Assembly (NCBI RefSeq): GCF_964204645.1 | Contig: NC_134029.1 | Location: forward strand, 15,678,850-15,742,849 | Direction: 5' to 3' | DNA: 64,000 bases | DNA from: Tubulanus polymorphus | Lineage: Eukaryota > Nemertea > Palaeonemertea > Tubulaniformes > Tubulanidae | In this document: positions 10,278 to 60,061 of the stretch, in pieces | Layout: every line of letters begins with the position of its first letter | Position numbering within the stretch: position 1 is the first letter of the stretch | Translations under genes and position numbers: made by a program | Notes under the pieces: model-generated | What the model saw: the letters and a program-made list of their open reading frames with translations, nothing else | Told to the model about the DNA's origin: nothing | Databases searched by the model: none

Positions 10278-10409
10278 ATTAAATGAATTATATAAAAATG
10301 AATAAATTATATGTTTTCTCTTAATAATAATAAAAATAGATTATATTATAACTATTTCTATACTTAGATTAATGATTTTATGTTTTTAATTTTTATGAAA
10401 ACTATTATA

Positions 10410-10502: not shown

Positions 10503-10540
10503 TTAAATTAGTTTTATAATAATTATTCTAATTTTGTTTC

Positions 10541-11740: not shown

Positions 11741-11783
11741 TTATTATATAAATAATATTTTTTTTTTTTTTAAAGTTAAAATT

Positions 11784-13031: not shown

Positions 13032-13071
13032 TTATTTAACAAAGAAATTAATTATTTATTTTTGATTATGT

Positions 13072-14409: not shown

Positions 14410-14425
14410 TTACATAATAAAAAAT

Positions 14426-14640
14426 TTAAAATTTAATATATAATATTCCTCCGATTACAATTCCTATACAAGTTATAGCTAATTTAGCATTTTCATGGGA
14501 TTTATTATCATCATTTAGTTTAATTATATCATGTTGAATATTATCAGTTTTAATATTTTCTGATGTATTATAATCCGGTTTAGAATCATTATTTAATTTA
14601 ATATTCTTAGTTTTAGTTTCTGTTGATTGAATGTGTTTTT
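14426..14640 (-). pseudogene. small single-membrane-segment protein, start lost
   Basis: The frame gives a polar Asn/Lys-rich stretch and a C-terminal membrane segment KLAITCIGIVIGGILY, ending at 14426-14428. The P3 homologue starts MEGEKILKN at 56163. Here the equivalent ATG has been removed and the next gene's stop overlaps, so no in-frame ATG remains. It is probably a tail-anchored virion or membrane protein in intact relatives. Confidence 0.55.
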
Positions 14641-15565
14641 TATTTTTTTCGCATTAATTTTGGAGCAGTAATTATCTTTTTATTTATATCATTCAATCCA
14701 AATGAATTATTAATTGTTGCACTTTTAATTAGATTATTGTAACCAATTATGTTTCCCATCTTTAATACTAAATCATTAGAAATAATTAATAGATTAGGGC
14801 CTATACAATAATTTAATCTAATATGTGATTTATCTAAATAATTTTGATATCTAACAATGTTTTCTGGAATCGATCTATTTGTATCATTATGTATGGAATC
14901 TTCAAATAAAACTTTAAATTGTTTTTGTGTATCGAATGATGTCTTCAAATTTCCAATTATCGGGGATCTTGTTTCAACTTGTGCGCCTAGAATACATATC
15001 AAATAAGTTCTAATAGATTGATTTATTCTTTCTATACCTGATTTAGTAAAACCTTCACTATTTTCTAAAATGAAATAAACCCAACCATTATTGTTTTCTT
15101 GTTTTAAATGATAATAAAATTTCGGTAATTTATTGAAATTTAATGTTTCTAAATCCTTTGTTTCTATTTTACCATAACCTAATTTATTATTATAGATATT
15201 ATAAAAACTATTAGATGGTATGGGAAGTGCACAATATTCTGCAATCTTTTTAGGGCAAGGAAGTGATCTTATTGTTCCAATTTTTGTTCTAAAATCAGAA
15301 TTATTTATATCTATATTAAATTCATTACAAATTTTATAAAACTTTGATAAATTAATATAATTATCTAATTCTTTAAAATATCTAGATCCTGGTAAAGCGC
15401 ACTCTAATTCATTTAATATTATTCTGATTTGAAAGTATGTATGAAATCTAAAAAACTTTGAATTAATTTATATTTAGAATTATTCAAATGATCATTCCAA
15501 CTAATTCCACAACCTGTTGTTGCACAATAAACAGCAAAATTTAATTGGTTCTGCCAAAACTTCAT
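14640..15565 (-). pseudogene. conserved Polinton protein, FWQNQLNFAV family, one frameshift
   Basis: The frame starts MKFWQNQLNFAVYCATTGCG at 15565 and runs to about 15445. There a one-base slip moves it to the frame RFHTYFQIR..LNELECALPG, which continues to the stop at 14640. The mature length would be about 305 residues. The N-terminal pattern and the QIRxILNELE segment are recurrent in animal Polintons; the function is unknown to me. The start context (TTATATGAAG) lacks the TAAATG motif of its neighbours. A piece of the C-terminus survives in P3 at 55964-56161, fused to penton sequence by a deletion. Confidence 0.75.
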
Positions 15566-15574
15566 ATAAGATTT

Positions 15575-15811
15575 TTATAACCATTGTTTTTCATCTTTCA
15601 ATTTTTTAAAATTAATTAAATATACATGAAATATATTTTCCATCATTGCATTAAAATTATTAGTTTCAGTAACATAAATTTCTAAATTAGTTAATGAATC
15701 TAAAACTTCATTTCTATATGTAATATCTTTATTAAAATCTTTTTCTGGAATATTATATTTAATTGATTTATTATATTGGAAAGCTTTTTGAAAACTATCA
15801 ATTTCTACCAT
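15575..15811 (-). CDS. 78-residue hypothetical protein
   Basis: A small, mostly helical, polar frame begins MVEIDSFQKAF and ends KKLKDEKQWL. It has no membrane segment or recognised motif. It lies nine bases upstream of the FWQNQLNFAV gene and starts in ATATAAATGG, matching the start context of the surrounding structural genes. That context is the best evidence that it is a real gene. Confidence 0.6.
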   Translation of the reverse strand: MVEIDSFQKAFQYNKSIKYNIPEKDFNKDITYRNEVLDSLTNLEIYVTETNNFNAMMENIFHVYLINFKKLKDEKQWL

Positions 15812-15827
15812 TTATATAATAAAAAAA

Positions 15828-16263
15828 TTAATAATTTATTAATTCTTTTAATAATTCATCTTGTTCTTCAACTGTTATATGGCCATTTAAACTTATTATA
15901 TAATCTAGTGTATTCTTTAATTTATTAATTTCTTTTATATTAGTTTTAATTTTTTCTTTATTACTTTTTATATTTAATGTTGAACTTATACCAGTTAAAA
16001 CACTTGAACTTAATCCTAATACACCAATTGATATAGCTAAAGGTGTTAATGGACTGAATATTGCTAGAAATGTTATTACAGAACTAATTGTAACCGAACC
16101 ACTTATAATCAAATAATATATAATTTTACTTTTTAAATATTTTTTTCTTTTTAACCTTTAAATCACTTTCAAATTCTTATATTTGTTTTTCGAAATATGT
16201 TTTTAATTTAGTTTTATTTATATCATGAGGAATAATATCAATATTATCAACTTTATCTTCCAT
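15828..16263 (-). pseudogene. two-membrane-segment protein, stop and frameshift
   Basis: The start at 16263 (TAAATAAATGG) gives MEDKVDNIDII..., then an in-frame TAA after about 27 codons and a slip in an A-run near 16130. The frame then reads through hydrophobic segments (IISGSVTISSVITFLAIF and PLAISIGVLGLSSSVL) and a charged coiled C-terminus, ending LLKELINY. The intact length would be about 144 residues. It may be a membrane-associated virion protein. No family was recognised. Confidence 0.6.
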
Positions 16264-16283
16264 TTATTTAGCAAAAAAAATTA

Positions 16284-16704
16284 CTAATTAGTAAATTTAT
16301 ATGCTACAAGTATAACAATAACTGTTCCACCTAAAATCCAAATTATTTCATATTTCAATTTCTTTACTTGGAGTATAATAATCTGATAATTTGGGTTTGT
16401 ATAGATGTAATTTTTCTTTATTTGTTACCGCGTTATATAAACTCATTGCATCATCAACTGATTGATAATCTCTATGTGAAATCTTCTGATCATATAATTC
16501 TTTGTTAATATAATCCATATAATTTTGCCTCTTTTCTCTATATTCTTCTGCTGCTTTATTGTATTTCTCTAATGCTAAGTTATGTCTTCTTTGTTCTCCT
16601 AATGAACTATTTTTATCAATATGCTTAAATGAATAACCGCCACCAGTAAATGCTAAAGCGTTAACAAATGCCGATCCTATAATAGTTATAATTGCAGAAG
16701 CCAT
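16284..16704 (-). pseudogene. conserved Polinton protein (YTPS family) with C-terminal membrane segment
   Basis: Starts MASAIITIIGSAFVNALAFT, a hydrophobic N-terminus. A charged helical middle with HNLALEKYNKAAEEYREKR follows, then LSDYYTPSKE and, after a one-base slip near 16350, a membrane segment EIIWILGGTVIVILVAY ending TN at 16284. This hydrophobic/helical/L(S)D(F/Y)YTPS/membrane layout recurs in animal Polintons near the capsid cluster; its function is unknown to me. The start context is TAAATAAATGG. The slip would remove the C-terminal anchor. Confidence 0.7.
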
Positions 16705-16728
16705 TTATTTAGCAAAATAATTGCGCAT

Positions 16729-16951
16729 TTATATGGGAGGAATATATTTTTGTTTTTCTAAATAATCAATAGTTAAATTAGATTAAAGTAACTGCTAATG
16801 TTAACTTTAAAATATCATTTATATCAAATCTATCAACATTAACACTTCCCATTTTAAATACTTTTTTTAATACCATTGAATAACCAACAGTTCCAACTGA
16901 TAGTAATGCGCCATTATATAATCCAGTTATTATCCACTTATTATCACTCAT
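16729..16951 (-). pseudogene. small membrane protein, about 73 residues, late frameshift
   Basis: Starts MSDNKWIITGLYNGALLSVG, continues through VDRFDINDILKLTLAVTL, and then hits a stop at 16778. A one-base slip there gives SNLTIDYLEKQKYIPP, ending at 16729. The start ATG directly follows the stop of the next upstream gene (TAA-ATG with no gap), showing tight packing. The function is unknown. Confidence 0.55.
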
Positions 16952-17315
16952 TTATTTATCAAAAAAATTACTCAAAAATTCATCAAAATATTTAGTTATC
17001 TTATTTATGATTAATTCAACATTTATTTCATTACTAGTTTCATTTGTATATATTTCAATTATTATTTTTTTAATATCATCGATGATAAAATCTTCATCTA
17101 ATTCATAAAATCTTAAAAGATTCTCTAATTAAATTAGTAATCTTTTCTACATTTAAAGTTTCTTTATCCATTGTTGTTTCATACTCAAATGTTGTTTCAT
17201 TAGAAAATGTAATATTTTTAATATGTGTAATTACATCATTAACGTTAAATTTCATTTCTTTCTCATGTTTAAAATCAAACCCAAAACATATACTCGGTCC
17301 AACAGTTATATTCAT
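16952..17315 (-). pseudogene. about 120-residue hypothetical protein, one frameshift
   Basis: Starts MNITVGPSICFGFDFKHEKE at 17315 (ATATAAATGAA). A slip near 17110 shifts the frame from NLIRESF to LRFYELDEDFIIDD, and the gene ends FDEFLSNFFDK at 16952-16954. It is acidic with no membrane segment. Its stop abuts the ATG of the following gene. No family was recognised. Confidence 0.55.
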
Positions 17316-17331
17316 TTATATAGTGAAAAAC

Positions 17332-18085
17332 TTACTCTTTACATCCTATAACTAATTCATATATCACAGGAAAGTTATTCAAATCAATTAAATAACCATT
17401 ATGATTTCTTATTTCTAATCTAAAATTATTAAGTTTAGGAATGCAAGGTTTAAAATCACATTCTGTTAAATTATAATTTATTTGTGTTCCAAATTGTTTA
17501 ACATTTTTTAGCGGTAAAATATTTAGTATACTAGAACTACAAATTGTTTCTTTAGTTGCTTCGAAAGTTTTTGTAGGCTCGATTAAATTGCAATAAATAT
17601 GAAAGTGTGTAAAAGGTATTATATTTGAGCTGCCTTCTGCGTTTCCAGTAACTGTAAGAGGTTTAATTCCTAACATTTTAGCCAGTGGTTTGTTTACCAT
17701 AAATTTATGTTGTTCATTAGATATCTTTATTCTTATTTTATTAGTACTATCAATTTTATTAAATTTAATTTCAAATACAGAAGCGCCCGATTTTCAACCG
17801 AGCTCTTCTATTAATTTCCTGCGCTAATGATTCTAAATTATATAATCCTGGTTTTAAAAATATTTGAAACCATTTATCTTTATTTCTCATATAAATCATA
17901 AACCCTCTATGTTCAAAAGTTTTATCCGATATATTATGAAAAGAATTACATAAACTTATATTTACTAATTTTAAATAAACACAATTCTTGAATTCTCTAT
18001 CTAATTGAACTAGTAAATTATGTGATTTATAATTTGTAAGCCTTCTAGAATCAACAAATATTCTGTATTCTTTTAATTCTACCAT
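17332..18085 (-). pseudogene. Polinton penton (minor capsid, single jelly-roll), one frameshift
   Basis: The first frame (18085 to about 17775) reads VELKEYRIFVDSRRLTNYK..., then HNISDKTFEHRGF..., FLKPGLYNLESLAQEIN. After a slip near 17785 it continues EIKFNKID... into KPLAKMLGIKPLTV, NVKQFGTQINYNL, LEIRNHNGYLIDLNNFPVIYEL. The PG(L)Y..(E)SLAQEIN, LAKMLG and G(Y)LIDLNNFP(V)IYEL segments are the Polinton/adintovirus penton pattern. It would form the fivefold vertices. It lies 15 bases upstream of the 120-residue gene and downstream of the 113-residue gene. P3 keeps only its N-terminal half. Confidence 0.8.
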
Positions 18086-18099
18086 TTATGCTACATATT

Positions 18100-18441
18100 T
18101 TATTCGAAATCTATTTCATGGTGCCCTTTTTCATTCTTACCTTTGTATACGAAATAGAAATCTCCAGAACATAATTCTTTATGAAATCTATGAAATCTAT
18201 CCGGTAAATATATTCTGAATTTATATGTATTTCCTTTTAATCCTTCATATTCTAAGTGTATAACTAATTTATCTCCATAGTTATTAGTAACTGTATCAAT
18301 ATTTGTAATTAGATATTTCTTATGGATTGTTAATTCTGTTAACTTTTTGAATTTATAATCTACAGATTTTACATTTGTTATATCTTTTATTCTATCTAGA
18401 AATAATTTGCTGTTCTCACTGTGTGTTTGTTTACTCTCCAT
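18100..18441 (-). CDS. 113-residue conserved Polinton protein
   Basis: Central pattern: LTIHKKYLITNIDTVTNNYGDK, then VIHLEYE, then RIYLPDRFHRF. Small proteins of this 'xxKYxI....T.YG..xV..L......LP.RF' type recur beside Polinton polymerase genes. The beta-rich pattern would suit an OB-like nucleic-acid binder, but that is inference. The frame is intact. It starts in TTATAAATGG with TTTTAATAAAA about 20 bases upstream. P3 has two broken copies, one in each terminal repeat, so this gene was captured by the terminal repeats there. Confidence 0.75.
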   Translation of the reverse strand: MESKQTHSENSKLFLDRIKDITNVKSVDYKFKKLTELTIHKKYLITNIDTVTNNYGDKLVIHLEYEGLKGNTYKFRIYLPDRFHRFHKELCSGDFYFVYKGKNEKGHHEIDFE

Positions 18442-18470
18442 TTATAATACATATTTTTATTAAAATTTGA

Positions 18471-21400
18471 TTAACACGTTAGAATTCTTTTCATTATCTC
18501 GTTCTCTTTTGTTTCTTCTCTTTTAAATTTTAAGTATTGATCTAAATTACAACCATATGCAACTGTATGAATTCCATCATCTAAAATATATCTTTTATCA
18601 TCAAATGGGTTTAGACTTATCTTTTCAATTTCTTCAATAAACATTTCATGATCTTCAGATCTTAAACATCTCATCTTATGTTTTCTAACTTCTTCATTGA
18701 ATATACAATTGATGTAATCTTTGAAATGAATATTCTTTTCTACTACACTTTTGGTTATTCCTTTTAACTTTTTAGCTTCATGTTCTTTAGTTTTATATGA
18801 ATACATTTTAGATCTAATACCTATGAACTCTATCATTTCTTCACCGCCTAATTCATCCTTAAACTTCCCTGGAACTTTTTTATTATCATTGCTAAACAAT
18901 TCATGATCTTAAGGATAATTACTAAAATCAAAATGATGTTTTAATGTTTTTAAATCATCTGTTATGTTATCAGTTTTTATCTTTAATATGTAACTGTCGG
19001 TATCAAAATATAATATTTCTATATGTTTTTCTCCAAAAAGTGGTTGTAATACATTATAATAGAATTCATACATTAGTAATTTTGATAATTCTAAAACTGA
19101 AGCGCCAACATAGATTGGTTTATTAAATTTCATTGATGTTCTTCTCATCTTAACTGCGGCTAAATTTTCATCAAATATTCTGTCACCAATGAACTTAGGA
19201 TATGATTGTAAATGTCTAATTCTTTTATCATTACTAACTAACTCAATATCATTTCTATTTCTAATATTTTCACAAGTCTTACCATAGAATGCATTGTTCA
19301 TTAACTTGAAGGAATCTTTCTCGAAATCAGTTTTAGCTTCAGTTCTCTGTTTGGTGTTTGGTAAAATCTATATATTTTTCTAACCACTTAGATTGACTGA
19401 ATGAAATATATCTATGTACTTTTTTTAGAACCATTCCTTGTTTTAGATAAAACTTCAACATTCTATAATGTACTACATAATTATATTTATCTTCTTGAGT
19501 TACCATTAACTTTTCTGTATGAATATGATTTTCGGGTTTAATTCTTTTTTGGTAATTTGATAATTCTTCATGAGTAACAGTTTTATGTTAGGACAGTTTT
19601 TTTGTTAGGACAGTATGCTAGATTTCTAGATTTAAATTTTTTATCTTCAGGATATTCTAAATCTACAACAAAGAAGTAACCAGTATCTGAATCATCTGCA
19701 ATATCTAGAATTCTTTTCTTCCAATCAAATTTATCATTATTTTCATTCTGTAAAACTTCAGTTAATTCAAATACTCCATAAGGTTGTGGTTCCATCATTG
19801 CCCAACCATACAAATTATTTGCATCTATATATAATAACTTATATCCAGGGTTATCATTTACATTGAAATATCTATCACCTAATACACCTGAAACTCCTCC
19901 TCTTATAGATTTTTCAAATAATAGTAATTGATCTATATTTGTTAACAAATCCATTTTTATATCTGTAAATTTTAATCCACAATCCCATGTTAAACCTGGA
20001 CTAGAATAACAATGACATGGATCAATGTTAAAATATTTTAGGTTTACATCTCTAAACCTTTCAAATATATCGGTTAAAAATAATACATCTGATTTTAGAT
20101 ATGAATCTACTAATTGTCCATGATTTTCTATTTTGAAATGATTCCAAATACTCAATGTTCTATTATATACTTCATCTTTAACATATTCATTTTTTAATTC
20201 ATCATAGAATTGTTCTTTCAATAATTCAGTTATGTTAAAATCATTATGATTTTTATAGAAAGAATATGGAATTGCGCCTTTATATCTCATTAATTGAAAA
20301 TCATCATTATTTGGATAGTGTTGCTTTAATATTTTAAATTCATCATCAACTAATGATTTTGATAAGTAATCTAATGAACTATTTAAAAATCTATATGAAT
20401 CTATAAATCTTAGGCAACCAAATTGGAATGATATATAATTCTCAGATGTTTTAGCTAACATTCTAAATTTATAAGTTGGTATTTTATCTTTTGATCTATT
20501 TGAATTTAATCTTTCTATTTCATTATTGATTTCTTCTATTTTATGGCATAACTGTTTGATAAATAAATGTGCATCATATCCTGATAGATTATGAAATATA
20601 ACTGGTACAAAATTAATTTTCTTAGCTTGCAAATTGCAATTCTCATGCGCAGCGCCTCTAAACTTTCCATTCAAATGATCATGGTCTCTTACTTTTTTAT
20701 CTTTATAATTAAATATCTTTTCACAATAATAACATTTATCTGCAAACGCAAATGCTTCTTTATCTTCTTCTGTCATTATAATTTCTATATTTGTATTCAA
20801 TAATTTACTAAATCTTATTTCATATTCAATTAATAAGTCACAAAAATGATTGATAACATTTTCATTTCTATAATGATAATATTCACTTTTGATTAGTTCT
20901 GGATAATCAGATTTTATATATAACCCGAAAGCAGCAGCTGATTGATGAATCTTTTTAATAGTATTTGTTTTTGGTGGTTCATCTGAAAAATCATTTTCAT
21001 TAGAATTTAATTTCTTTCTTTTATAATATATTTCTTTTCTATCTTGATCAGTTAATTCTTTATTTAATGATTCAAAATCTCCATATATTACAAATGGTAC
21101 TTTATTTTTGTAATCATATTTTTTGAATTCTAATATTTTATCTTTTTCATTTGGTAAAACTAATTTACAATAATCATGATTTTCACATAATTGTTTATGA
21201 TTTAATAATGCACTTTCAGTTCTGGATTTATGTAAACATTTTCTACATAGATATATTTTATTATCAAAATCATTTTCTGATTTGAAAAATAAATCAATTC
21301 TTATAATCCACATATAATGATTCTCATAATATAATATATCTATAACATCATTTGAATCATAATCTTTTGATAGATATAAAGGTTCTAATGTATAATGTTT

Positions 21401-21771
21401 TATATTGTTACCTTTTGTATTTGGCAATTTTATTAAATCAAATACATTTATTTTTAGATTATTATCTCTTTCTATTTTTGGGACGTTTTTAATTATAACA
21501 GGATACTTATCTATCTTATAATTATTTTCAAATGGTTTATAATGAGTTAATCTACAAATATTATAAGTTGCAGGATGTAAGCAACTAATTATTGACCATA
21601 GAAAACATTTATCATCAGAATTTTGTACATTTATAACAGCATTAGTTTTGTTTGGTAATTTGATATAACTTGATCCGTTAATATTATCATCTTTATGATA
21701 TGATGAATTATTTTCATCAATTGGTTTTGATTTAGTTAACTTATTAACTTATTATTTTGTGTTATAAACAT
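18471..21771 (-). pseudogene. protein-primed DNA polymerase B with HNH/EndoVII-type insert, several frameshifts
   Basis: The longest frame (19583-21427) has a CRKCL..H..LC zinc-like site (residues 61-81), ExoI YGDFES (115-120) and a C-X2-C...VRDHDHLNGKFRGAAHENC insert (232-264). That insert resembles endonuclease VII HNH folds. ExoII HNLSGYDAH (279-287), ExoIII YLKSD (443-447) and palm motif A DANNLYG (535-541) follow. Motif B MNNAFYGKT and motif C YFDTDSY lie in 18909-19301, and the C-terminus is in 18471-18899. Upstream sequence in frame (CFLWSIISCLHPATYNI) and an overlapping ATG at 21771 extend the N-terminus. Frameshifts occur near 21750, 19612, 19350 and 18905. Intact, it would replicate the element from a terminal protein. 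Confidence 0.9.
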
Positions 21772-22531
21772 GTAAAGTCATAAATATTATTTCATCAAAT
21801 ATTAAACTAGATCCTTCAAATTATTTCTCTTCTATTTTAGTTTTTACTTCATTATAACATTTATCTAATTTATCATCTATATGTTGTTTAGATATGATAT
21901 GTTGTGAATGAGAATTTATATTATATATTGGTTTATCTTCAGATTTTATAAACTTTACTTTAACTGATATACTAATTTTAGGGTATTCAACATCTGTAAT
22001 TATTTTTATAATATTTTTCATATTTTCTAAATGTTTTTTATTTTCTTCTAATGTTTTTCCTTTATGAAATTTAAACTCAATAGCTGCTGGGCCAATATCA
22101 CTTTTAAATGCTTCGGTTATCTCTATATCTTTTTTATTATCCAATAAATTAATATATTTTCTTACATCTTCCATGTATGGTCTTTTATTGTTTAATTCAT
22201 TTCTTATTCTTTTAATTGTCTTCTGTTTCTTATCATTATCTTTATCAAAATAATCTTCACCTAAAATATCATTATTCTTATTTCTAATATGACTTTTAGA
22301 TTTTAAATGTTCATTATAATATCTTTTATCACTGAACGATTGATTACATGTATCACATTTGTATGTTTCTTTTTCATTCTTTAATTCATCTAATTTAGTT
22401 TCTAATATAACATCTTTATATTCTAGTTTCAATTTATTCTCTAAATGTGTTTTAGTTTTATTGTGTCTTGCTTTTTGGGATTTATCTATATTGATTTTAC
22501 ATGTTGGGCAGTAGTACTTATTTGCTTCCAT
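21758..22531 (-). pseudogene. two-finger U1-type zinc-finger protein at the right end
   Basis: It begins MEANKYYCPTCKINI. The first finger, C8-C11-H23-H29, is C-X2-C-X11-H-X5-H; the second, C59-C62-H75-H81, has X12. A conserved block RPYMEDVRKYINLLDNK..IEITEAF...GPAAIEFKFH lies in the middle, and a basic C-terminus ends at TAA 21821. In-frame sequence after that stop (FEGSSLIFDEIIFMTLHVYNTK) is open to a double TAA and overlaps the polymerase start, so 21821 may be a premature stop. It is the terminal gene; its first 38 codons lie in the terminal repeat. Function unknown, possibly regulatory. Homologous pieces are in P3 and P4. Confidence 0.75.
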
Positions 22532-23051
22532 TTTAATACAAATTTTTTTTTTAAATTGATTTTAGAAGTTCAATGATATATAGGTTCAAATAGAATCATG
22601 TTCTAGTATAAACAGCTATGCATTATTTCAATCACACTTTAATAATATTTTAAGAGTAATAGGGGTTTAGTTGGTTCAGGTTAAAGGTTGAATGGTCGAC
22701 TTCATTAAAAACAAATATTAAAAGTAATTTAAAACTATAATATATTTTCATAACCGTGTGTACTTCAGTTGAATAATAGAATAATTATTATTATTTGAAT
22801 ATATTCGATTATATGAATTTGTGTATTGTAAATAAATCAATTGGTCGCGGAGCGGAGCGGCAGCGAAGTGGAGATTTAATACAATATGCTTTTTAAATGA
22901 TTGATATCTTAGAATAAATATTTAGTTATAATATAAAATGTACACGGTTATGAAAATATATTATAGTTTTAAATTACTTTTAATGTTTTGTTTTTTGAAT
23001 GAACTCGACCGTTCGACCTTTGATCTGAACCAACTAAACCCCTATTACTGC
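22418..23051 (-). repeat. P1 right terminal inverted repeat, with nested foldback
   Basis: The complement of 8300-8920. From about 22651 outward it is again self-complementary, with AGTAATAGGGG at 22654-22664 and CCCCTATTACT at 23041-23051. Unlike the left end, the foldback centre holds a GC-rich spacer around 22848-22880 (GGAGCGGAGCGGCAGCG). Confidence 0.9.
22542..22560 (-). promoter_or_regulatory. TIR-proximal gene promoter motif
   Basis: On the minus strand a TTTTAAT/AAAA-type A/T box lies about 20 bases before ATTAAAATGG of the zinc-finger gene. The same arrangement precedes the left duplicate at 8806, the E2 gene at 33300 and the P3 terminal genes. It differs from the TAAATG contexts of internal genes. 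Inferred promoter, not demonstrated. Confidence 0.4.
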
Positions 23052-31853: not shown

Positions 31854-32800
31854 ATGAGTTTACCAAGAATTGTTGATCGGCAGAGCTCCGACTTAAAAAC
31901 TATCGATGTAGCTATAAAAAACAAATTTAGGTGGAATTGGTTAGAGGAAAAGGATTTTCATGGTGATTTCTTGTCCGATTACATACGTAAACTCGAGGAA
32001 GGTGGCCTCGCGTATTGCTTGATATGCAAAGAAATTATTAAATACGGTGGTTGAGGAAAACGGGACATAGTAAACCACGCTAAAAAACAAAAGCACACGC
32101 AAATTAGAAAGGATCTGAAAAGGAATGAAGAACTACCCGCAAGCTACCAGCCGATCATTTCAACTGAAGGCAATGAACCGTCCACTAGTAACAGTTGTAG
32201 TACTGGTAGCTTACCAATGCCATATGGGGTTGCCCCGAATGTTCCTGGTGTCCAAGGAGAAAATCGCGATATCAGGCCGAAATTCGTACCAACTATCGAC
32301 AGAATATCCCATGCACAGGCCATGACTCTATCGTTCATAGCTGAGAACTCTCTCCCAATTTCCATGTCCGAGAAGTTGATTAAGTTTGCTAAGGAGCTCA
32401 GTCGCGATGAGAAAGCGGTTTCGCAGATTACGATGGGAAGAACGTGTGCTACGTACAAACTAAAAAATGGCCTGAGTACGCACATCCGCAAAAATGTTGT
32501 GGCTGATATGCGGAAATCGTTTTTCTCGATTAATACCGATGAATGCACTGCATTAAATTTCGAAAAAGTGTTCAGCATCCTGACTTCATATTATAGTGAC
32601 GAACTTGAACGGTGCGTAGTAAATCACTACACCTCATCATCGATTTCCCGAGTCAACGTGGCGTCAGTTACAGAATTAGTTCTTAGTAAACTGAAAGCGG
32701 ACGAAATACCACTGACCAACATAGTTTCAAGTTTGTCCGACTCAACCAACTATATGCGAGGCAAGGTCAGTGGGTTTGAGACAAGACTGCGTGAAGCGTC
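31854..32800 (+). pseudogene. hAT transposase, N-terminal part with BED-type finger
   Basis: The frame starts MSLPRIVDRQSSDLKTIDVA. It contains a BED-like finger CLIC....H....H (YCLICKEII followed by NHAKKQKHTQ) that is interrupted by a TGA at about 32053. A Ser/Pro linker follows, then AMTLSFIAENSLPISMSEKLI, VSQITMGRTCATYKL and SSLSDSTNYMRGK, where the Asp in LSDS may be part of the catalytic triad. It ends at the E2 target duplication AGCGTC. The first frame is displaced only by the stop, so decay is limited. Confidence 0.8.
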
Positions 32801-33009
32801 AGTAATAGGGGTAATGGGCTTTCATACCAAAGGTCGAAAGGTCGAGCTCATAAAAAAACAAAATATTAAAAGTAATTAAAAAACTATAATATATTTTCAT
32901 AACCGCGTGCATTTTATATCAAAACTAAATATTTATTCTAAGATATCAATAATATAAAAAGCATATTGTATTAAATCAATTGGTTGCGAATTTATTTTTC
33001 ATTTTCTAC

Positions 33010-33235
33010 TCGCTAGAAAAAGTGTGAGTAAAGTGTGAGTGAAATAATTCATATTTTAACAGATTTCGAGTAAAAATATAAGTAAAATAAATGGATAACT
33101 AAAAGAATATAAAAGTGTGAGTAAAGTGTGAGTGAAATAGTTTATATTTTAAACATATTTCAATATTTATATTTGTATGAGTTAGATTTTTAAACATTAA
33201 AGTGTGAGTAAAGTGTGAGTGAAATAATTCATATT
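33010..33235. repeat. E2 AGTGTGAGTAAAGTGTGAG repeats
   Basis: AAAGTGTGAGTAAAGTGTGAGTGAAATA is present three times, starting near 33017, 33110 and 33200, with A/T-rich spacers. The mirror set is at 37735-37960. They lie directly upstream of the 207-residue gene and could be promoter or replication elements; no function was demonstrated. Confidence 0.75.
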
Positions 33236-33299
33236 TAAAACATTGAATATTTATATTTATATGTGTTGGATTCATTTTAATAAAAGTTTTGTTATTAAA

Positions 33300-33923
33300 A
33301 TGAAGACAGAAGAAGAAGAAGAACCCAACTTTAAAATCGAAATCAATGAAACCAATAAATCATTTTCACAGTTTTACATTAAAAATTATATTTCAGCAAC
33401 AAATTTAGTGTCCGCAAGACATTATAAAATCGATAATATTACTATGATTAATCAAATATTATCAAATGAAACATATTTACTTACTGAACTAGTAGATACT
33501 TTTGATAATGGCGTTAAAAATCCTAAAATATTCAATACAGTTTTAAATTTTAAAGGAACTTTAGATGAAAACATAATTAATATTCTTAAAACTCCTTTCA
33601 ATGAAAGAAATGATGATATAATACTTTCAAAAGATTACAATGATTTGATTGACTTAAGAATTGAAAGAAGACAATTATATTATTTCAATTTTGATAATAA
33701 ACAAATTATCTATAATGAAAATTCATCAAATATTGGAATTCAATGTGAATTAGATAATGAAAAATCATTTAAAGATATTGCAGTTCAATGTAATTTAGAT
33801 GATGAATTTAGAAAATTCAATCCTAATGAAAAAGTGCATTGTTATTGCGGAGGTAAATATTTAAAATCACATAAATCAAAGCATTATGAAACAATTAAAC
33901 ATAAAAACTGGCGTAAAGAGTAA
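33300..33923 (+). CDS. E2 207-residue protein with CxC-H-H finger (left copy)
   Basis: Start chosen at ATG 33300, in TTATTAAAATG with TTTTAATAAAAG just upstream, as for P1's terminal gene; an ATG 57 bases earlier is in frame but inside the motif. The protein has an acidic start (KTEEEEEP) and a helical middle. Two repeats follow (IGIQCELDNE and IAVQCNLDDE), then C181-X-C183-X11-H195-X5-H201. This is a shortened form of the U1-type finger in P1 proteins. No enzyme motif was seen. The mirror copy at 37050-37674 is frameshifted near its end. Possibly a DNA-binding or replication accessory protein, by context only. Confidence 0.75.
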   Translation: MKTEEEEEPNFKIEINETNKSFSQFYIKNYISATNLVSARHYKIDNITMINQILSNETYLLTELVDTFDNGVKNPKIFNTVLNFKGTLDENIINILKTPFNERNDDIILSKDYNDLIDLRIERRQLYYFNFDNKQIIYNENSSNIGIQCELDNEKSFKDIAVQCNLDDEFRKFNPNEKVHCYCGGKYLKSHKSKHYETIKHKNWRKE

Positions 33924-33985
33924 CAATTCTACATTATAATTATTGAATTGAGTTAAAAGATTTAAATATCTAATAGACTGTTAAA

Positions 33986-34222
33986 ATGATAAATTGTTTG
34001 ACAGTTGAAATGATAAATGATTTGACAGTTGAAATGATAAATTGTTTGACAGTTGAAATGATAAATTGTTTGACAGTTGAAATGATAAATGATTTGACAG
34101 TTGAAATGATAAATTGTTTGACAGTTGAAATGATAAATTGTTTGACAGTTGAAATGTTAAATTGTTTGATTGTTGAAATGTAAAATTGTTAGACTGTTGA
34201 AATGTTAAATTGTTTGTTTGAA
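33986..34222. repeat. E2 24-bp minisatellite (MINCLTVE codons)
   Basis: About nine copies of a 24-base unit reading ATGATAAATTGTTTGACAGT plus TGAA are in tandem. The frame is open for 65 codons as repeats of MI(N)(C/D)LTVE. Whether it is translated is unknown; repeat structure alone explains the open frame. Mirror copy at 36752-36988. Confidence 0.8.
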
Positions 34223-34297
34223 AATTTAATTGTTATTTGATTTGAAACATATAAATATTAAATATTTTATAAACTGTTTAATTTTTCTCTTAAATAA

Positions 34298-34516
34298 ATG
34301 GATGGTTTCATCCCAACTGGGAAAAGTGATTTGAAACATTATTTAGTTGCTGGAGGTTTAATATTGGCGGCATTATACTTTTACTATGAAAATATTTCAA
34401 AAGATTTGATGAATGAAAATAATAAATTGAGTAAAAAATTAAAGAAGTTAAATGGAAACAATCACAGAAATAAAAAGAATAAAAAAGTTAATTTAGAAAA
34501 TGATTTAGAGGATTAA
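34298..34516 (+). CDS. E2 72-residue single-membrane-segment protein (left copy)
   Basis: Starts MDGFIPTGKSDLKHYLVAGG in the context CTTAAATAAATGG, identical to the internal genes of P1. One membrane segment at about residues 15-31 (YLVAGGLILAALYFYY) is followed by a basic coiled tail (KLSKKLKKLNG...KNKKVNLEND). It is conserved without change in the mirror copy (36457-36675). Unknown function; a small membrane or virion component is plausible. Confidence 0.75.
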   Translation: MDGFIPTGKSDLKHYLVAGGLILAALYFYYENISKDLMNENNKLSKKLKKLNGNNHRNKKNKKVNLENDLED

Positions 34517-34554
34517 AACAACATCTTTTAATTTCATATATTTTGACTATAAAA

Positions 34555-34857
34555 ATGAGTGAAAATATATTAAACTTATTACATCTAATATATAAAAATC
34601 AACAGAATATTAAATCAATTATTATGCTTACAGGTTTATTTTCATTCTCAGTTTATAGTATAAAACAGTTGTTAGAATTCTATGATTGCTGTAAAATTAG
34701 ATACACTGAATTAATAGAAAATATGAATTATATTTCAGATAGATTGAATAATATTAAATGCTGTGAAAAATGCAATAAAAGATATAAAAATAAAAAGAGT
34801 TTGAGAAATCACATGTATATTCATGAACTTGATGAAAAATTATATGAATCAAAATAA
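34555..34857 (+). CDS. E2 100-residue membrane plus C2H2 finger protein (left copy)
   Basis: Starts MSENILNLLHLIYKNQQNIK (ATG 34555, context TATAAAAATG). One hydrophobic segment lies at residues 21-40 (SIIMLTGLFSFSVYSIKQLL), followed by a charged helix. A classical C2H2 finger follows: C70-X2-C73-X12-H86-X3-H90 (CCEKCNKRYKNKKSLRNH). A single protein with both a membrane segment and one finger is unusual. Identical in the mirror copy (36116-36418). Function unknown. Confidence 0.75.
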   Translation: MSENILNLLHLIYKNQQNIKSIIMLTGLFSFSVYSIKQLLEFYDCCKIRYTELIENMNYISDRLNNIKCCEKCNKRYKNKKSLRNHMYIHELDEKLYESK

Positions 34858-34913
34858 GAAATCGACTGTTAAATTAGCTGAAAATATAAAATATATTAGT
34901 TGAAATGTATTGT

Positions 34914-34984
34914 ATACTAATGGATGAGTGGATGAATTGGATGAGTTGGATGAATTGGAAGAGTGGAAGAGTGGATGAGTGTAA
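34914..34984 (+). repeat. E2 GGATGAGTGGATGAATTGG repeat, inner pair member
   Basis: A roughly 65-bp run of GGATGAGTGGATGAATTGG-type units recurs at 35342-35416 in the same arm and inverted in the other arm near 35558-35632 and 35990-36060. The second copy directly follows the ATPase tail, the position held by the hairpins in P1. Confidence 0.85.
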
Positions 34985-35261
34985 CAGAAGTAATTTATGT
35001 TTTAATTCATTCAAGTATGATATTTTAAATTCTTTACACTTGACTAGGATAATACTAGAGTGATATTAGTTAGTTGGCTTATTCAATAAGAGAAACAATG
35101 AAATAATACAAGAGTGATACTAACAGTTAAAGTTATTGAATTTCTTGTTAAATCTATTTGAATTCTAGTCAATTCTTGTTAACCAATAGCGTGAATAGAA
35201 ATCAAAAAGATTTAAATAAAAAAACAATAAGTTACATCAGTTAGAACCTTTATTATTTTTT

Positions 35262-35311
35262 AATTACTTCTGAGACTACAATTTCCATATGAATTTAAAT
35301 TTATAAAATAA
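35262..35311 (+). pseudogene. 3' end of Polinton ATPase gene in E2 left arm
   Basis: The codons read LLLRLQFPYEFKFIK-stop. They match the last residues of the P1 ATPase (LLLRLQFPYEYKFIK, stop at 10132) with nearly the same bases. Sequence upstream is unrelated, so most of the ATPase and all of the integrase were deleted. The mirror copy is at 35662-35711. This fixes the orientation and origin of the E2 arm as a Polinton left end. Confidence 0.85.
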
Positions 35312-36115
35312 AATCCTAATTCAAAATATTATAGAATTCACTGTATATTGATGGATGAGTGGATGAATTGGATGAGTTGGATGAATTGGAAGAGTGGAAG
35401 AGTGGATGAGTGTAATAATATATAATTTACATATGTTTTTTATTTTTAAAACAGTAAGAGTTTGATTTGAAGTTATTTTATCAATTTTATACTATATTTA
35501 AATATTATTAAAATAATATATATATTGTATTAAATTTAATAAAGAATATAAATATTATTACACTCATCCACTCTTCCACTCTTCCAATTCATCCAACTCA
35601 TCCAATTCATCCACTCATCCATCAATATACAGTGAATTCTATAATATTTTGAATTAGGATTTTATTTTATAAATTTAAATTCATATGGAAATTGTAGTCT
35701 CAGAAGTAATTAAAAAATAATAAAGGTTCTAACTGATGTAACTTATTGTTTTTTTATCTAAATCTTTTTGATTTCTATTCACGCTATTGGTTAACAAGAA
35801 TTGACTAGAATTCAAATAGATTTAACAAGAAATTCAATAACTTTAACTGTTAGTATCACTCTTGTATTATTTCATTGTTTCTCTTATTGAATAAGCCAAC
35901 TAACTAATATCACTCTAGTATTATCCTAGTCAAGTGTAAAGAATTTAAAATATCATACTTGAATGAATTAAAACATAAATTACTTCTGTTACACTCATCC
36001 ACTCTTCCACTCTTCCAATTCATCCAACTCATCCAATTCATCCACTCATCCATTAGTATACAATACATTTCAACTAATATATTTTATATTTTCAGCTAAT
36101 TTAACAGTCGATTTC

Positions 36116-36418
36116 TTATTTTGATTCATATAATTTTTCATCAAGTTCATGAATATACATGTGATTTCTCAAACTCTTTTTATTTTTATATCTTTTATTG
36201 CATTTTTCACAGCATTTAATATTATTCAATCTATCTGAAATATAATTCATATTTTCTATTAATTCAGTGTATCTAATTTTACAGCAATCATAGAATTCTA
36301 ACAACTGTTTTATACTATAAACTGAGAATGAAAATAAACCTGTAAGCATAATAATTGATTTAATATTCTGTTGATTTTTATATATTAGATGTAATAAGTT
36401 TAATATATTTTCACTCAT
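36116..36418 (-). CDS. E2 100-residue membrane plus C2H2 finger protein (right copy)
   Basis: Protein identical to the copy at 34555-34857, with the same TATAAAAATG start context and the same C70/C73/H86/H90 finger. Exact protein identity between arms is the best evidence that the arms are young or kept homogeneous. Confidence 0.75.
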   Translation of the reverse strand: MSENILNLLHLIYKNQQNIKSIIMLTGLFSFSVYSIKQLLEFYDCCKIRYTELIENMNYISDRLNNIKCCEKCNKRYKNKKSLRNHMYIHELDEKLYESK

Positions 36419-36456
36419 TTTTATAGTCAAAATATATGAAATTAAAAGATGTTGTT

Positions 36457-36675
36457 TTAATCCTCTAAATCATTTTCTAAATTAACTTTTTTATTCTTTT
36501 TATTTCTGTGATTGTTTCCATTTAACTTCTTTAATTTTTTACTCAATTTATTATTTTCATTCATCAAATCTTTTGAAATATTTTCATAGTAAAAGTATAA
36601 TGCCGCCAATATTAAACCTCCAGCAACTAAATAATGTTTCAAATCACTTTTCCCAGTTGGGATGAAACCATCCAT
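36457..36675 (-). CDS. E2 72-residue single-membrane-segment protein (right copy)
   Basis: Protein identical to the copy at 34298-34516, including the CTTAAATAAATGG start context and the hydrophobic segment at residues 15-31. Confidence 0.75.
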   Translation of the reverse strand: MDGFIPTGKSDLKHYLVAGGLILAALYFYYENISKDLMNENNKLSKKLKKLNGNNHRNKKNKKVNLENDLED

Positions 36676-37049
36676 TTATTTAAGAGAAAAATTAAACAGT
36701 TTATAAAATATTTAATATTTATATGTTTCAAATCAAATAACAATTAAATTTTCAAACAAACAATTTAACATTTCAACAGTCTAACAATTTTACATTTCAA
36801 CAATCAAACAATTTAACATTTCAACTGTCAAACAATTTATCATTTCAACTGTCAAACAATTTATCATTTCAACTGTCAAATCATTTATCATTTCAACTGT
36901 CAAACAATTTATCATTTCAACTGTCAAACAATTTATCATTTCAACTGTCAAATCATTTATCATTTCAACTGTCAAACAATTTATCATTTTAACAGTCTAT
37001 TAGATATTTAAATCTTTTAACTCAATTCAATAATTATAATGTAGAATTG

Positions 37050-37674
37050 TTACTCTTTACGCCAGTTTTTATGTTTAATTGTTTCATAATGCTTTGATTT
37101 ATGTGATTTTAAATATTTACCTCCGCAATAACAATGCACTTTTTCATTAGGATTGAATTTTCTCAAATTCATCATCTAAATTACATTGAACTGCAATATC
37201 TTTAAATGATTTTTCATTATCTAATTCACATTGAATTCCAATATTTGAGGAATTTTCATTATAGATAATTTGTTTATTATCAAAATTGAAATAATATAAT
37301 TGTCTTCTTTCAATTCTTAAGTCAATCAAATCATTGTAATCTTTTGAAAGTATTATATCATCATTTCTTTCATTGAAAGGAGTTTTAAGAATATTAATTA
37401 TGTTTTCATCTAAAGTTCCTTTAAAATTTAAAACTGTATTGAATATTTTAGGATTTTTAACGCCATTATCAAAAGTATCTACTAGTTCAGTAAGTAAATA
37501 TGTTTCATTTGATAATATTTGATTAATCATAGTAATATTATCGATTTTATAATGTCTTGCGGACACTAAATTTGTTGCTGAAATATAATTTTTAATGTAA
37601 AACTGTGAAAATGATTTATTGGTTTCATTGATTTCGATTTTAAAGTTGGGTTCTTCTTCTTCTTCTGTCTTCAT
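37050..37674 (-). pseudogene. E2 207-residue finger protein (right copy), frameshifted
   Basis: Identical to the left copy through the IAVQCNLDDEF repeat. One added G then shifts the frame, so the protein ends EKIQS and loses the CxC-H-H finger. The finger codons are still present downstream in the other frame. Only one of the two copies in this element can therefore encode the full protein. Confidence 0.75.
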
Positions 37675-38179
37675 TTTAATAACAAAACTTTTATTAAAAT
37701 GAATCCAACACATATAAATATAAATATTCAATGTTTTAAATATGAATTATTTCACTCACACTTTACTCACACTTTAATGTTTAAAAATCTAACTCATACA
37801 AATATAAATATTGAAATATGTTTAAAATATAGACTATTTCACTCACACTATACTCACACTTTTATATTCTTTTAGTTATCCATCTATTTTACTTATATTT
37901 TTACTCGAAATCTGTTAAAATATGAATTATTTCACTCACACTTTACTCACACTTTTTCTAGCGAGTAGAAAATGAAAAATAAATTCGTGACCAATTGATT
38001 TAATACAATATGCTTTTTATATTATTGATATCTTAGAATAAATATTTAGTTTTGATTTAAAATGCACGCGGTTATGAAAATATATTATAGTTTTTTAATT
38101 ACTTTTAATATTTTGTTTTTTTATGAGCTCGACCTTTCGACCTTTGGTATGAAAGCCCATTACCCCTATTACTAGCGTC

Positions 38180-39761
38180 GCCACAGCTACTTGACATAGA
38201 CGGTGACGTTTGCCACCACATTCACAATTCCGTTAAAAACTTCTGTTCACACTTCGACACGATCGCCGAGAAACTAGCCGACGATATGCACACCGATTTC
38301 AAATATAGTCCAGACCTTCGTGATGCACTGGCCGAATTGTGTCAAATACTGGGAATCCCGTATGTCATCCCAGCCCAGCGCATTCCCCACCGCTGGTTGT
38401 CGGCATTTGACGTAACTGTTAAAAGCCTAAAGATCATCGAAGGGCTTTCCCTGTTTTATTTCACTTGGATACCTGAGAAGGCGAATTACCAAGAATTGAT
38501 TGTTAACATTCTCAGATCCGTTCCGGCAAATGCAAGAAAAAGGGTCTACGAAATCATCGGCGAGTTAAAAAAGAAAGATTTGACCTCTGATGGACGGAAC
38601 AGAAAAATGCGCATTGTAGATAAACTGTTTTTCAAGCGACGTGAAACCCTGATCATCATGTATTTTTACTCGCGAGTTCTTCCGTTATTCAAGTCGTTCG
38701 TTTTGGCATTCGAGAGTAGTGAGCCAAAAATGCACAAACTGCACGATAAACTCTGTGATCTAATGAGCCATTTTCTCTGTTGTTTTCTGAAACATGAAAC
38801 AGTATCTGGATTGTCAGCACGGAAACTGCTCACGCTAGACTGTACAAAAAACTACCTACCCGTTAATGAGATGTACGTCGGAGAGGAGGCAAAGCGATTG
38901 TTGGCAAAGTGTGATGTAACTGATCGCAACAGAATACTGTTAAAAATTCGAGGTGCATATACTGAAGCAGCAACGTATCTACAGAAAAAGTTACCGCTGG
39001 AGAACAAAGTTCTACGTTACATGTCTGCATTGGACCCTGAGGCCATGGGTCATTCGGATACGTGCACTGCTCTGAAGAGACTTGTGGCTTTCTTTCCTAC
39101 CGTAATCATGCCAGATGACCTTGATAGCCATGATTCTTACAAGTTAGAGTGCAGCAAGTTACAGTCAGACAAAACACTTCCACCTTGTGATGAAAACACT
39201 CGCCTTGACACGTGGTGGACAGACATCTTCAAAACGAAGAAATATCCTACACTGGCGAAGATTGTCAAAGCAGCAATTAGCGTCTTTACTGCACCTCGCA
39301 TTGAGCAATCGTTTTCAGCTATGAATGACTTGATCGATAAGAAGTCAAACCGGATGGCCACTTCAACGTATGCCGCTATACAGAACGTAAAATACAACCT
39401 GAAGTCACGCCAGACAACAACTCTTGAACTCTATCACCGAGAAAACATTCCCCAAAGTCCAGTAAACCGAGACATGGTGTAACACATGCAAACAGCTTGT
39501 GGCCGTCACAAGCGGCAACGGCAGGAGAAGCAACAAGCTCAGCTGGCAAAGAAACGAAAATTAGGACTAGATTCCATGGTAGCAACTGCTCCTGTTCTGT
39601 TACGACCAAAGATTGTATCCAGGAATAAGTCGAAGTCAATTGTTCGAAAACGAGCCACATTGTCAACTGCAGGTAGCCGACGAACCGTACATGAACTTGC
39701 CAAAGAGGCAAAACAGCGAATTATGAAAGCGGTCTTGGCGAAAAATAAGAGAAAAAACTAA
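38180..39761 (+). pseudogene. hAT transposase, catalytic and dimerisation part
   Basis: The frame continues from the target duplication (LLDIDGDVCHHIHN...). It has LPVNEMYVG, LKIRGAYTEAATYLQKKLP and LDPEAMGHSDTCTALKRL, then the hAT C-terminal dimerisation block: LDTWWTDIFKTKKYPTLAKI..., then IEQSFSAMNDLIDKKSNRM. A TAA at 39480-39482 precedes a further in-frame basic tail (KRQRQEKQQAQLAKKRK) to 39761, so that stop is probably a premature CAA-type change. It is intact enough to recognise readily. The closest subfamily was not determined. Confidence 0.85.
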
Positions 39762-54789: not shown

Positions 54790-55535
54790 AGTAATTGTAT
54801 ATATATTGTTCTAGATCAAAGGTCGAACGGTCGAGCTCATTCAAAAATAAATATTAAAGTAATTTAAAACTATGATATATATTCATAGCCGTGTGTATTT
54901 CATATATTATAAATAGATATTTATTCAAAAATATTAATAATTTCAATTTTAAAAGCATATTGTCTGAAATCAATTGGTCAATTGGTATCCATATAATCAA
55001 ATATATTCTAATAATGATAATTATTCTATTATTTAATCTACAATACACACGGCTATGAAAATATATTATAGTTTTAAACTACTTTTAATATTTGTTTTAT
55101 AATGAGCGCAATCTTTCAACCTTTAATCTAGAACTATATATGAAAATCATATTTATGAAAATTTTAATAAAAAATTTGATATAAAGATAGAGAGTAAACA
55201 AATACACAGTGAATTCTTAGATAGAATTAAAGATAATACAAATGTCAAATCTGTAGATTATATTCATAAACAGATTTAACAATCTATAAGAAATATTTAA
55301 TTACAAATATTGAAACAATTACTAATAGGTATGGAGATAAATTAGTTATCCACTTAGAATGTGAAGGATTAAAAGGAAATAAATGTAAATTCAGAACATA
55401 TTTACCAGATAGATTTCATAGAATATCTAATGAAGATATCGAAGAGTTATGTTCTGGAATATTCGATTTCATATATAAAGGTAAGAATGAAAAAGGGCAC
55501 CATGATATAGATTTCGAATGAAAAATACATAAAAT
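54790..55535 (+). repeat. P3 left terminal inverted repeat
   Basis: Complement of about 62190-62984. The outer ~340 bp (54790-55135) is a nested foldback with CTAGATCAAAGGTCGAACGG at one end and its degenerate complement at the other. The inner part carries the 113-residue gene and its TTTTAATAAAAAATTTGAT promoter-like motif. Confidence 0.85.
55187..55521 (+). pseudogene. 113-residue protein homologue, left copy
   Basis: It aligns with 18100-18441 of P1: ESKQIHSEFLDRIKD..., YLITNIETITNRYGDKLVIHLE, TYLPDRFHRI, GHHDIDFE. The start codon has become ATA (55187) and a frameshift follows near 55265. Non-functional. Confidence 0.8.
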
Positions 55536-55537
55536 AA

Positions 55538-55963
55538 ATGCAAGATAAATTAAAAGAATATAGAATATTTGTTGATTCAAGAAGACTTACAAATTATAAA
55601 TCTCATAATTTATTGATACAACTAGATAGAGAATTTAGAAATTGTGTTGATTTAAAATTAGTTAATATTAGTTTAAGTAACTCGGTTTACAATATATCGG
55701 ATAGAACTATTGAACATAAAGCCTTTTTGATTTTAATAAACGTAAAAATAAATGGTATCATCTATATCTAAAACCAGGGTTATATAATTTAGATACATTG
55801 TCACAAGAAATTAATAGAAAAGCCTGGCAATTAGGTAGTGATTCCGGGTTTGGCGTTAGATTTTTAAAAAGTGATAGTTCTAATAAAATAAAGATTAGGT
55901 TAGCTCATAGTGAAAAACATCAATTTTTAGTTAAAAAACCTATAGCTAAACTGTTACGAATGT
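55538..55963 (+). pseudogene. penton homologue, N-terminal half
   Basis: Starts MQDKLKEYRIFVDSRRLTNY (context AAATAAATG). It matches the P1 penton through the PGLYNL region and LVKKPIAKLL, with a frameshift near 55740. It retains the GSDSGFGVRFLKSDS stretch, which is degraded in P1. At 55963 it joins C-terminal sequence of the FWQNQLNFAV gene, so the 3' half of the penton gene and all genes between were deleted. Confidence 0.8.
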
Positions 55964-56162
55964 AAGATATCAAAATTATTTAGATAAATCACATATTAGA
56001 TTAAATTATTGTATAGGTCCTAATCTATTAATTATTTCTAATTATTTAATATTAAAAATGGGAAATATAATTGGTTATAATAATCTTATAAATACTGCAA
56101 CAATAAATAAACAGTTTGGATTAAATGATATAAATAAAAAAATTATCTACGCTCCAAAATAA
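55964..56162 (+). pseudogene. FWQNQLNFAV-family protein, C-terminal fragment
   Basis: Reads VRYQNYLDKSHIRLNYCIGP, then MGNIIGYNNLI, GLNDINKKII and APK-stop, matching the end of 14640-15565 in P1. The TAA at 56160-56162 directly abuts the next ATG. Confidence 0.8.
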
Positions 56163-56411
56163 ATGGAAGGTGAAAAAATTTTAAAGAATATTCAATCAAC
56201 AGAAACTAAAACTAAGAATATTAAATCAAATAATGATTCAAAAATAAAAGATTATAATACATCAGAAAGTAAAAAAACTGATAATATCCAGCATGAAATA
56301 ATTTAAACTAATGATGATAATAAATCACATGAAAATACTAAATTAGCTATAACTTGTATAGGAATTGTAATAGGAGGAATATTATATTTTAGATTTCAAT
56401 CTTTTTATTAT
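56163..56411 (+). pseudogene. small membrane protein homologue
   Basis: Starts MEGEKILKNIQSTETKTKNI, retaining the ATG that P1 has lost. An in-frame TAA follows HEII, then the membrane segment KLAITCIGIVIGGILYF. The P1 stop is changed and the frame runs on to the TGA near 56410. Confidence 0.7.
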
Positions 56412-56415
56412 GTAA

Positions 56416-57827: not shown

Positions 57828-57852
57828 ATAATTAATTTTTTTTCTTAAATAA

Positions 57853-59061: not shown

Positions 59062-59093
59062 AATTTTAATTTCAATAAAAAAATTTATAATAA

Positions 59094-60060: not shown

Positions 60061-60061
60061 A

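Follow-up and report, generated by a model that had tools for sequence, protein, structure and literature searches.

A palindromic Polinton in the nemertean Tubulanus polymorphus and its probable place in a non-autonomous lineage made by fold-back copying

A 6-bp target-site duplication (TSD) is typical of Polintons, also called Mavericks. In PMC4028283, these elements are described as 15 to 20 kb long and as carrying pPolB, an RVE integrase, an ATPase, and a protease. Here we describe E2, a palindromic element of Tubulanus polymorphus, in a stretch of 64,000 nucleotides from assembly GCF_964204645.1 (contig NC_134029.1, here C5; C5:15678850-15742849). This whole stretch is called the window, positions without a contig name refer to it, and E2 was compared with sequences across the 268-Mb genome (77 contigs). 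E2 shares with Polintons its termini, the 6-bp duplication, a left-end gene, and the tail of the ATPase gene, and relatives in the genome encode a Pox_A32-type ATPase, a fragment of PolB, and an rve integrase whose chromodomain match is below threshold. It differs in being a palindrome of 5.4 kb with the left end at both sides. E2 has no rve-family integrase open reading frame (ORF), which the relative L078 has; PolB is absent from its ORFs and was matched in the neighboring element E1; only the last codons of the A32/FtsK-type ATPase are present, the frame being intact in E1. In the reading that we favor, at a probability of about 0.78, E2 represents a single insertion from a palindromic, non-autonomous lineage of Polintons that originated by fold-back copying at inverted repeats and relies on helper Polintons to move.

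Several other systems resemble E2 in part. Adenovirus incomplete particles hold left-end-biased or self-complementary defective genomes, and palindromic adenovirus molecules exist. As in E2, left-end material is kept and the same replication end stands at both sides; unlike these genomes, E2 is integrated and belongs to a chromosomal family. Galileo, a Foldback-like 2TIR element of Drosophila, is likewise almost all long inverted repeat, contains tandem repeats internally, and shows expansion of its terminal inverted repeats (TIRs) and chimeric copies (PMC3573991). However, Galileo belongs to the P superfamily and makes 7-bp duplications, whereas E2 has Polinton ends, a 6-bp duplication, and selected-looking genes in both arms. 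Hairpin-primed inverted duplications in yeast, as set out in PMC10622511, resemble E2 in fold-back at an imperfect repeat, mismatch correction, and copying to the end, but they involve chromosomal breaks and Pol delta and no mobile element with ends of its own. No palindromic Polinton is described in the titles and abstract openings listed by full-text searches on Polintons/Mavericks, adenovirus, and fold-back; most subscription journals lie outside this coverage, which makes it weak evidence of novelty. The Galileo paper (PMC3573991) mentions that inverted-repeat expansion has been reported in Polintons, citing among others a 2007 review.

Structure and insertion of E2

Self-comparison delimits E2 as an element of 5373 bp (32801..38173) that is covered throughout by its inverted arms (1618 nt at 100% and 1009 nt at 99%). 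The left arm has 2624 nt (32801..35424, plus strand) and the right arm, its inverted copy, 2625 nt (35549..38173, minus strand), together 5249 of the 5373 nt. They differ by 9 substitutions, one 1-nt indel at 33809, inside ORF1, and an equal-length reshuffle inside 24-bp tandem repeats. Arm length and identity exclude a palindrome by chance. The first-pass annotation, which described a near-perfect palindrome over the whole element, was right in this and in its small unique center, although the center (35425..35548) measures 124 nt and not about 130 bp. It is the same loop, at 92-98% identity, as that of an inverted repeat that occurs naturally beside the 3' end of the ATPase gene in non-palindromic copies. 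The Polinton termini and the clean 6-bp duplication also stood: the termini are exact (AGTAATAGGGG...CCCCTATTACT), both ends carry AGTAATAGGGG, and AGCGTC lies without change on either side (32795..32800 and 38174..38179).

E2 interrupts a hAT-like gene, whose 5' part lies at 32217..32800 on the plus strand and which resumes at 38180-39482. When the flanks are joined without E2 and one AGCGTC, they form a single open frame of 629 codons, the 3' part of which matches the hAT dimerization domain (PF05699, E 1.1e-4). A 601-nt join is uninterrupted at C10:4511124 (98%) and C3:12112905 (96%), which are paralogous empty sites. E2 thus entered as one piece, duplicating 6 bp of its target. The earlier view that it had moved as a unit and had not arisen by local inversion is borne out by the rejoined frame and the two empty paralogues; together with the TSD, these paralogues rule out local chromosomal inversion or duplication.

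Could the palindrome be an artifact, in which a long read of one strand and its complement was assembled into a false repeat? Errors of this type are known for long-read data. Yet the arms of E2 differ by the 9 substitutions and the indel, the two sides have unlike host flanks and a target duplication, a palindromic site is present on two contigs (C2:17704 and C14:177), and inverted arms recur at dozens of places. We regard an assembly error as extremely improbable.

Three ORFs per arm are supported, so the duplication of genes held but not the four per arm first annotated. ORF1 encodes 220 amino acids (aa) in the left arm (33261..33923, plus strand); its right copy (37050..37713, minus strand) has a one-base frameshift and encodes 188 aa instead. 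ORF2 (72 aa; 34298..34516, plus strand) and ORF3 (100 aa; 34555..34857, plus strand) have identical right copies (36457..36675 and 36116..36418, both minus strand), and the C terminus of ORF3 is C2H2 zinc-finger-like, under the Pfam cut-off. Among copies in the fetched loci, pooled ratios of nonsynonymous to synonymous polymorphism (pN/pS) were 0.34 for ORF1 (32 copies), 0.16 for ORF2 (23 copies), and 0.28 for ORF3 (26 copies), the copies being non-independent samples and gapped codons being skipped. Stops in projected codons occurred in 5 of the 32 ORF1 copies and in none of ORF2 or ORF3. All three ORFs look to be under purifying selection, which could have acted partly in non-palindromic ancestors. 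Arms are more concordant within than between elements: distances within an element are 0-1.6% (ORF1), 0-0.9% (ORF2), and 0-0.3% (ORF3), against means of 2.3%, 4.5%, and 5.6% between elements. ORF1 and ORF2 had no Pfam match at E 0.01, and a single-sequence AlphaFold2 model of ORF1 (mean pLDDT 33) was not used. By tblastn, no viral-contig relatives of ORF1, ORF3, or the E1 ATPase were confirmed, in a search that may not have covered records from this genome or close to it. The window had no Rfam match at gathering thresholds.

The remainder of each arm is made of repeats and a gene fragment. Ten copies of the 24-bp tandem repeat (33976..34216, plus strand; mirror array 36757-36997) lie between ORF1 and ORF2. 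After ORF3 come an extra copy of the hairpin stem (34904..34984, plus strand; mirror 35989-36069) and the 278-nt segment X (34985..35262, plus strand; mirror 35711-35988), the end of which is the turning point, and hence the center, of many relatives. The 3' tail of the Pox_A32-type ATPase gene follows up to its stop codon (35263..35311, plus strand), and then the 92-nt stem used for the allele comparison below (35330..35421, plus strand; mirror at about 35552-35643). Directly before the ATPase tail, at 35244-35257, 14 nt of ATPase coding sequence are inverted, which resembles a small template-switch scar.

Palindromic relatives across the genome

Genome searches rule out that E2 is a unique oddity. 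With ORF1 as the query (33300-33923), 40 of 494 candidates were scored and gave 40 matches; among these best 40, all 13 pairs of neighbors less than 8 kb apart were convergent, with C2:17704 and C14:177 among the 13 as one site on two contigs. Likewise, the best 40 of 339 ORF2-3 candidates included six neighboring pairs, all convergent. There is also an alternative first gene, L077:296-919, with 32% identity to ORF1 across 205 positions. It had 154 genome matches, of which 115 entered the pair analysis (those omitted were mainly short or split); of the pairs of neighbors, 15 were convergent, 2 were divergent, and 5 had both members on the same strand. For segment X, 40 of 116 candidates were scored, giving 37 clusters. 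Inverted X faced X in 30 of them, with 31 convergent pairs, and an exact 11-nt turn was found in 23 pairs from 22 clusters, mostly with one X copy shortened. This common turn suggests common descent.

Loci that seemed to have one arm were also read inward. In a chosen sample of such hits (L072-L077 and L079-L083), an inverted arm or terminus appeared in 8 of 11 (L073, L074, L075, L077, L079, L080, L081, and L083). Nine of the eleven were searched with Polinton proteins, and none of the nine had an integrase, ATPase, or PolB match; the L076 zinc-finger match sits in the end of a neighboring Polinton. Pooled evidence for inverted arms covers 60 places, 13 of which rest solely on convergent alternative-gene pairs. 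When those 13 and the C14:177 duplicate are dropped, 46 better-supported places are left, among which further small-contig duplicates are possible.

Both outer flanks were read in nine independent insertions, and perfect 6-bp duplications, all different, were found in seven: AGCGTC at E2, ACCGGT at C4:4608, CCTATG at C5:16904, TTCAAC at C5:17389, CCTACT at C10:7884, AACAAC at C2:17704, and TACTAG at C5:13824. The best long arm-to-arm match was 97.7-100% in 8 of 9 locus pairs compared and 95.8% at C6:12704. The first-pass annotation had proposed to look for other palindromes that share the ends of E2 but differ in target duplication; the convergent ORF1 pairs and the seven distinct duplications answer this in the positive. 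Given its choice between a single copy-back genome and a family that propagates as one, the family is supported.

The insertion shared by C2:17704760 and C14:177838 is present on one large contig and one small one; haplotypes or a duplication are the probable cause. Arms may also begin with unlike genes: at C7:9552-9559 (L074 1-936), one arm has ORF1 and the other a 312-aa frame, and the same frame is inverted in the second arm at C12:8188 (L081 1664-2554); this frame was not compared with ORF1.

The fold-back point and the longer Polintons

A search with the E2 center (40 of 150 candidates scored) yielded 30 loci, L009-L038. Of these, 23 match only an imperfect inverted repeat of 400-450 nt with 71-77% identity; the other seven represent five sites with long inverted arms, namely, E2 (twice), C4:4611 (twice), C8:7124, C5:17391, and C4:6869 (partial). 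Among the loci found by this query, the loop adjoins the ATPase 3' end in all 23 that have both, and a converging gene was seen where frames were written out (L011, L012, and L024). The one natural repeat that was folded, that of L024, reached -92.7 kcal/mol as single-stranded DNA (z -14.5). Along E2, the sequence of non-palindromic copies can be followed across the ATPase tail, the left stem, the loop, and the right stem; at that point E2 reverses into its own left arm, and 18 aligned natural loci continue differently. The fold-back point of E2 is therefore a natural inverted repeat of non-palindromic elements.

Natural left and right stems agree on average at 87.6% of positions (22 loci), whereas the two stems of E2 do not differ. 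At the sites with the most diagnostic value, the E2 stem is left-type on the arm side (positions 30 and 38) and right-type on the loop side (70 and 73). At C5:17391, one stem is all left-type, with one position undecided, and the other starts as left-type and becomes right-type at 70 and 73, as would be expected of a fold-back product before homogenization. The full E2 stem state is RRLLRLRRL, a mosaic, and one clean template switch is unsupported. In 3 of the 23 loci (L012, L018, and L019, the last two of which seem to be related), the loop is flipped with respect to the ATPase, which is why we suggest that the ATPase-3' repeat is a site of strand exchange.

Like a copy-back product, E2 is self-complementary and has the same genome end at both termini, and its turn-around can be explained by a parental repeat. 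From the fold-back point in a natural inverted repeat and the mosaic stem, we infer a copy-back step. Break-induced fold-back would leave the same trace, and the palindromes might instead stem from fold-back at chromosomal double-strand breaks, or from TIR gene conversion with TIR expansion as in Galileo, and have transposed later. In yeast, fold-back at inverted repeats does follow breaks, with the repeat mismatches corrected (PMC10622511), and PMC3573991 includes both a proposal that Galileo TIRs expand by recruiting internal sequence and the mention of Polinton inverted-repeat expansion. On the other hand, the seven intact TSDs and the empty paralogues indicate that at least E2 entered as a palindrome or was converted without its flanks being touched. 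Moreover, extension of terminal repeats alone is expected to leave a unique middle, of which E2 has only 124 nt. An origin in chromosomal breaks or TIR conversion thus appears quite unlikely.

E2 shares its ends with full-length Polintons. E1 (8300-23049), in the same window, is a 14.7-kb Polinton with 652-nt terminal repeats and the duplication GCTGCA. Its Pox_A32-type ATPase has an intact frame (E 4.6e-12), its integrase frame lacks a start, and an ORF at 19583-21427 matches DNA_pol_B_2 (E 6.3e-12) as a PolB fragment, with PolB-like matter in pieces; at E 0.1, this fragment had no relatives in PDB. The first 187 nt of E2 are 96% identical to the end of L071 (C1:14237) and 89% identical to that of E1. 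In L071, the outer end marks are 19 kb apart and different genes stand behind the common 187 nt. That E2 simply derives from E1 is ruled out, since what blastn finds shared is the terminus, the ATPase-tail region, and short repeats only.

The homology of ORF1 points to a Polinton left-end gene. L078 (C5:17067), a non-palindromic locus of which 4.9 kb were read, has a diverged terminus with 69 nt of the E2 end at 83% and without the exact terminal 11-mer. Inward from this terminus lie a homologue of ORF1 (71% at the aa level over 182 positions, 84% at the nt level over 513), frames of 261, 200, and 121 aa, and an rve integrase (PF00665, E 2.4e-9) whose chromodomain match is sub-threshold; next, at C5:17066928, stands an ATPase interrupted by one stop. 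By blastn and tblastn, ORF2, ORF3, and segment X had no convincing counterpart in the long left arms L071 and L078. The arms had been annotated as left-end material plus the ATPase tail only; this applies to terminus, ORF1, and ATPase tail.

To place the arm genes relative to ATPases, 150 of 1570 ATPase candidates were scored, so zeros are not absolute. None of 40 close ORF1 copies and none of the 33 best alternative-gene matches had a scored ATPase within 12 kb, and ORF2-3 had one in 1 of 40 cases (C1:16892977, beside a neighboring Polinton). Among distant homologues of the alternative gene (41-47%), 7 of 23 lay within 12 kb of a scored ATPase, three of them near the same one, where 1.3% would be expected. 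The close ORF1-3 set occurred, among the loci looked at, only in palindromic, half, or unresolved loci.

These distributions bear on the simplest alternative, that each palindrome is a dead-end by-product of a full-length Polinton that folded once and inserted once, with no propagation in palindromic form. It would account for arms that are nearly identical within elements, for centers and arm lengths that vary between elements, and for the 92-98% identity of the E2 loop to present non-palindromic copies. It sits poorly with the 22 X clusters that share one 11-nt turn, since common descent is suggested by them, and the loci examined included no non-palindromic element with a close ORF1-3 set, which is not conclusive with 150 of 1570 ATPases scored. 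We judge independent dead ends to be rather unlikely.

The Polinton load of the genome is very high, as the 1570 ATPase candidates indicate; each of the 150 that were scored is 94-100% identical over almost all of the 203 aa, and a minority contain one stop. Each terminal repeat of E1 (8300-8682 and 22655-23049) is palindromic itself, though imperfectly (76-79%), and carries AGTAATAGGGG at either edge. This 11-mer occurs 769/770 times in the genome, versus 29/37 for a reversed control, with many close inverted pairs. Elsewhere in the window, E3 (54790-63000) is a degenerate Polinton whose terminal repeats match at 79% and whose genes survive as fragments, and a frame with an Integrase_H2C2 match (4401-5108, minus strand, E 3e-6) is probably a retroelement fragment. 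A mitochondrial-type uL2 frame in the window has mitoribosomal uL2m chains as its closest PDB entries, and an exon of cytosolic RPL8 is most similar to vertebrate chains and next to those of Drosophila; both point to an animal host.

A proposed origin by fold-back copying and its meaning

In the mechanism that we propose, strand-displacement replication of the Polinton type, protein-primed and starting from the left end, would supply a nascent or displaced strand. This strand would fold back at an inverted repeat, either the ATPase-3' repeat or one at the X end, prime on itself, and copy back along its own left arm as far as the terminus. The resulting molecule would have the left terminus at both ends and might be replicated again and integrated by enzymes of helper Polintons. 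Each passage through a hairpin would make one arm a fresh copy of the other, so that the two arms of an element would stay nearly identical. Once the element is inserted, part of one arm may be lost to host processing near the center. The frequent one-sided shortening beside the X center fits the instability of palindromes with short or no spacers, which are described as less stable in PMC7999016; an asymmetric template switch would explain it too.

Several findings weigh against an origin of this lineage by fold-back copying and its movement by helpers. Stem positions 19, 21, and 47 of E2 misfit a single switch, and the left-then-right stem pattern was not seen in the hairpin-centered loci L010, L013, and L014. 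For the X-end center, used by many relatives, no non-palindromic source or parent repeat was traced. No integrase or PolB was shown to share an element with an E2-family locus, so dependence on helpers is a proposal. To these are added the non-convergent alternative-gene pairs, the three single-armed loci without an inverted partner (L072, L076, and L082), and the two of nine insertions that lack a TSD (C6:12704, whose left end is altered, and C6:14995, where the left end was not found). The reported inverted-repeat expansion in Polintons weakens a claim of full novelty for E2.

More tentatively, and at somewhat less than an even chance, the family may be a satellite-like Polinton lineage whose normal transmissible form is a self-complementary hairpin-dimer. 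Such a lineage would carry its own selected genes in two mirrored copies, use the enzymes of full-length Polintons, rehomogenize its arms at each hairpin passage, and from time to time acquire a new center through a switch into a helper's inverted repeat.

As a rule, long perfect palindromes are unstable and regarded as defects. To our knowledge, the replication mode of Polintons has not been directly watched so far, and the traces left at fold-back points would make it testable. If our reading is true, a gene-carrying family that has spread as palindromes would show that a compact satellite can arise from a protein-primed replicon in one step, because fold-back at the replicon's own inverted repeat would automatically give the product a replication and integration end on each side.

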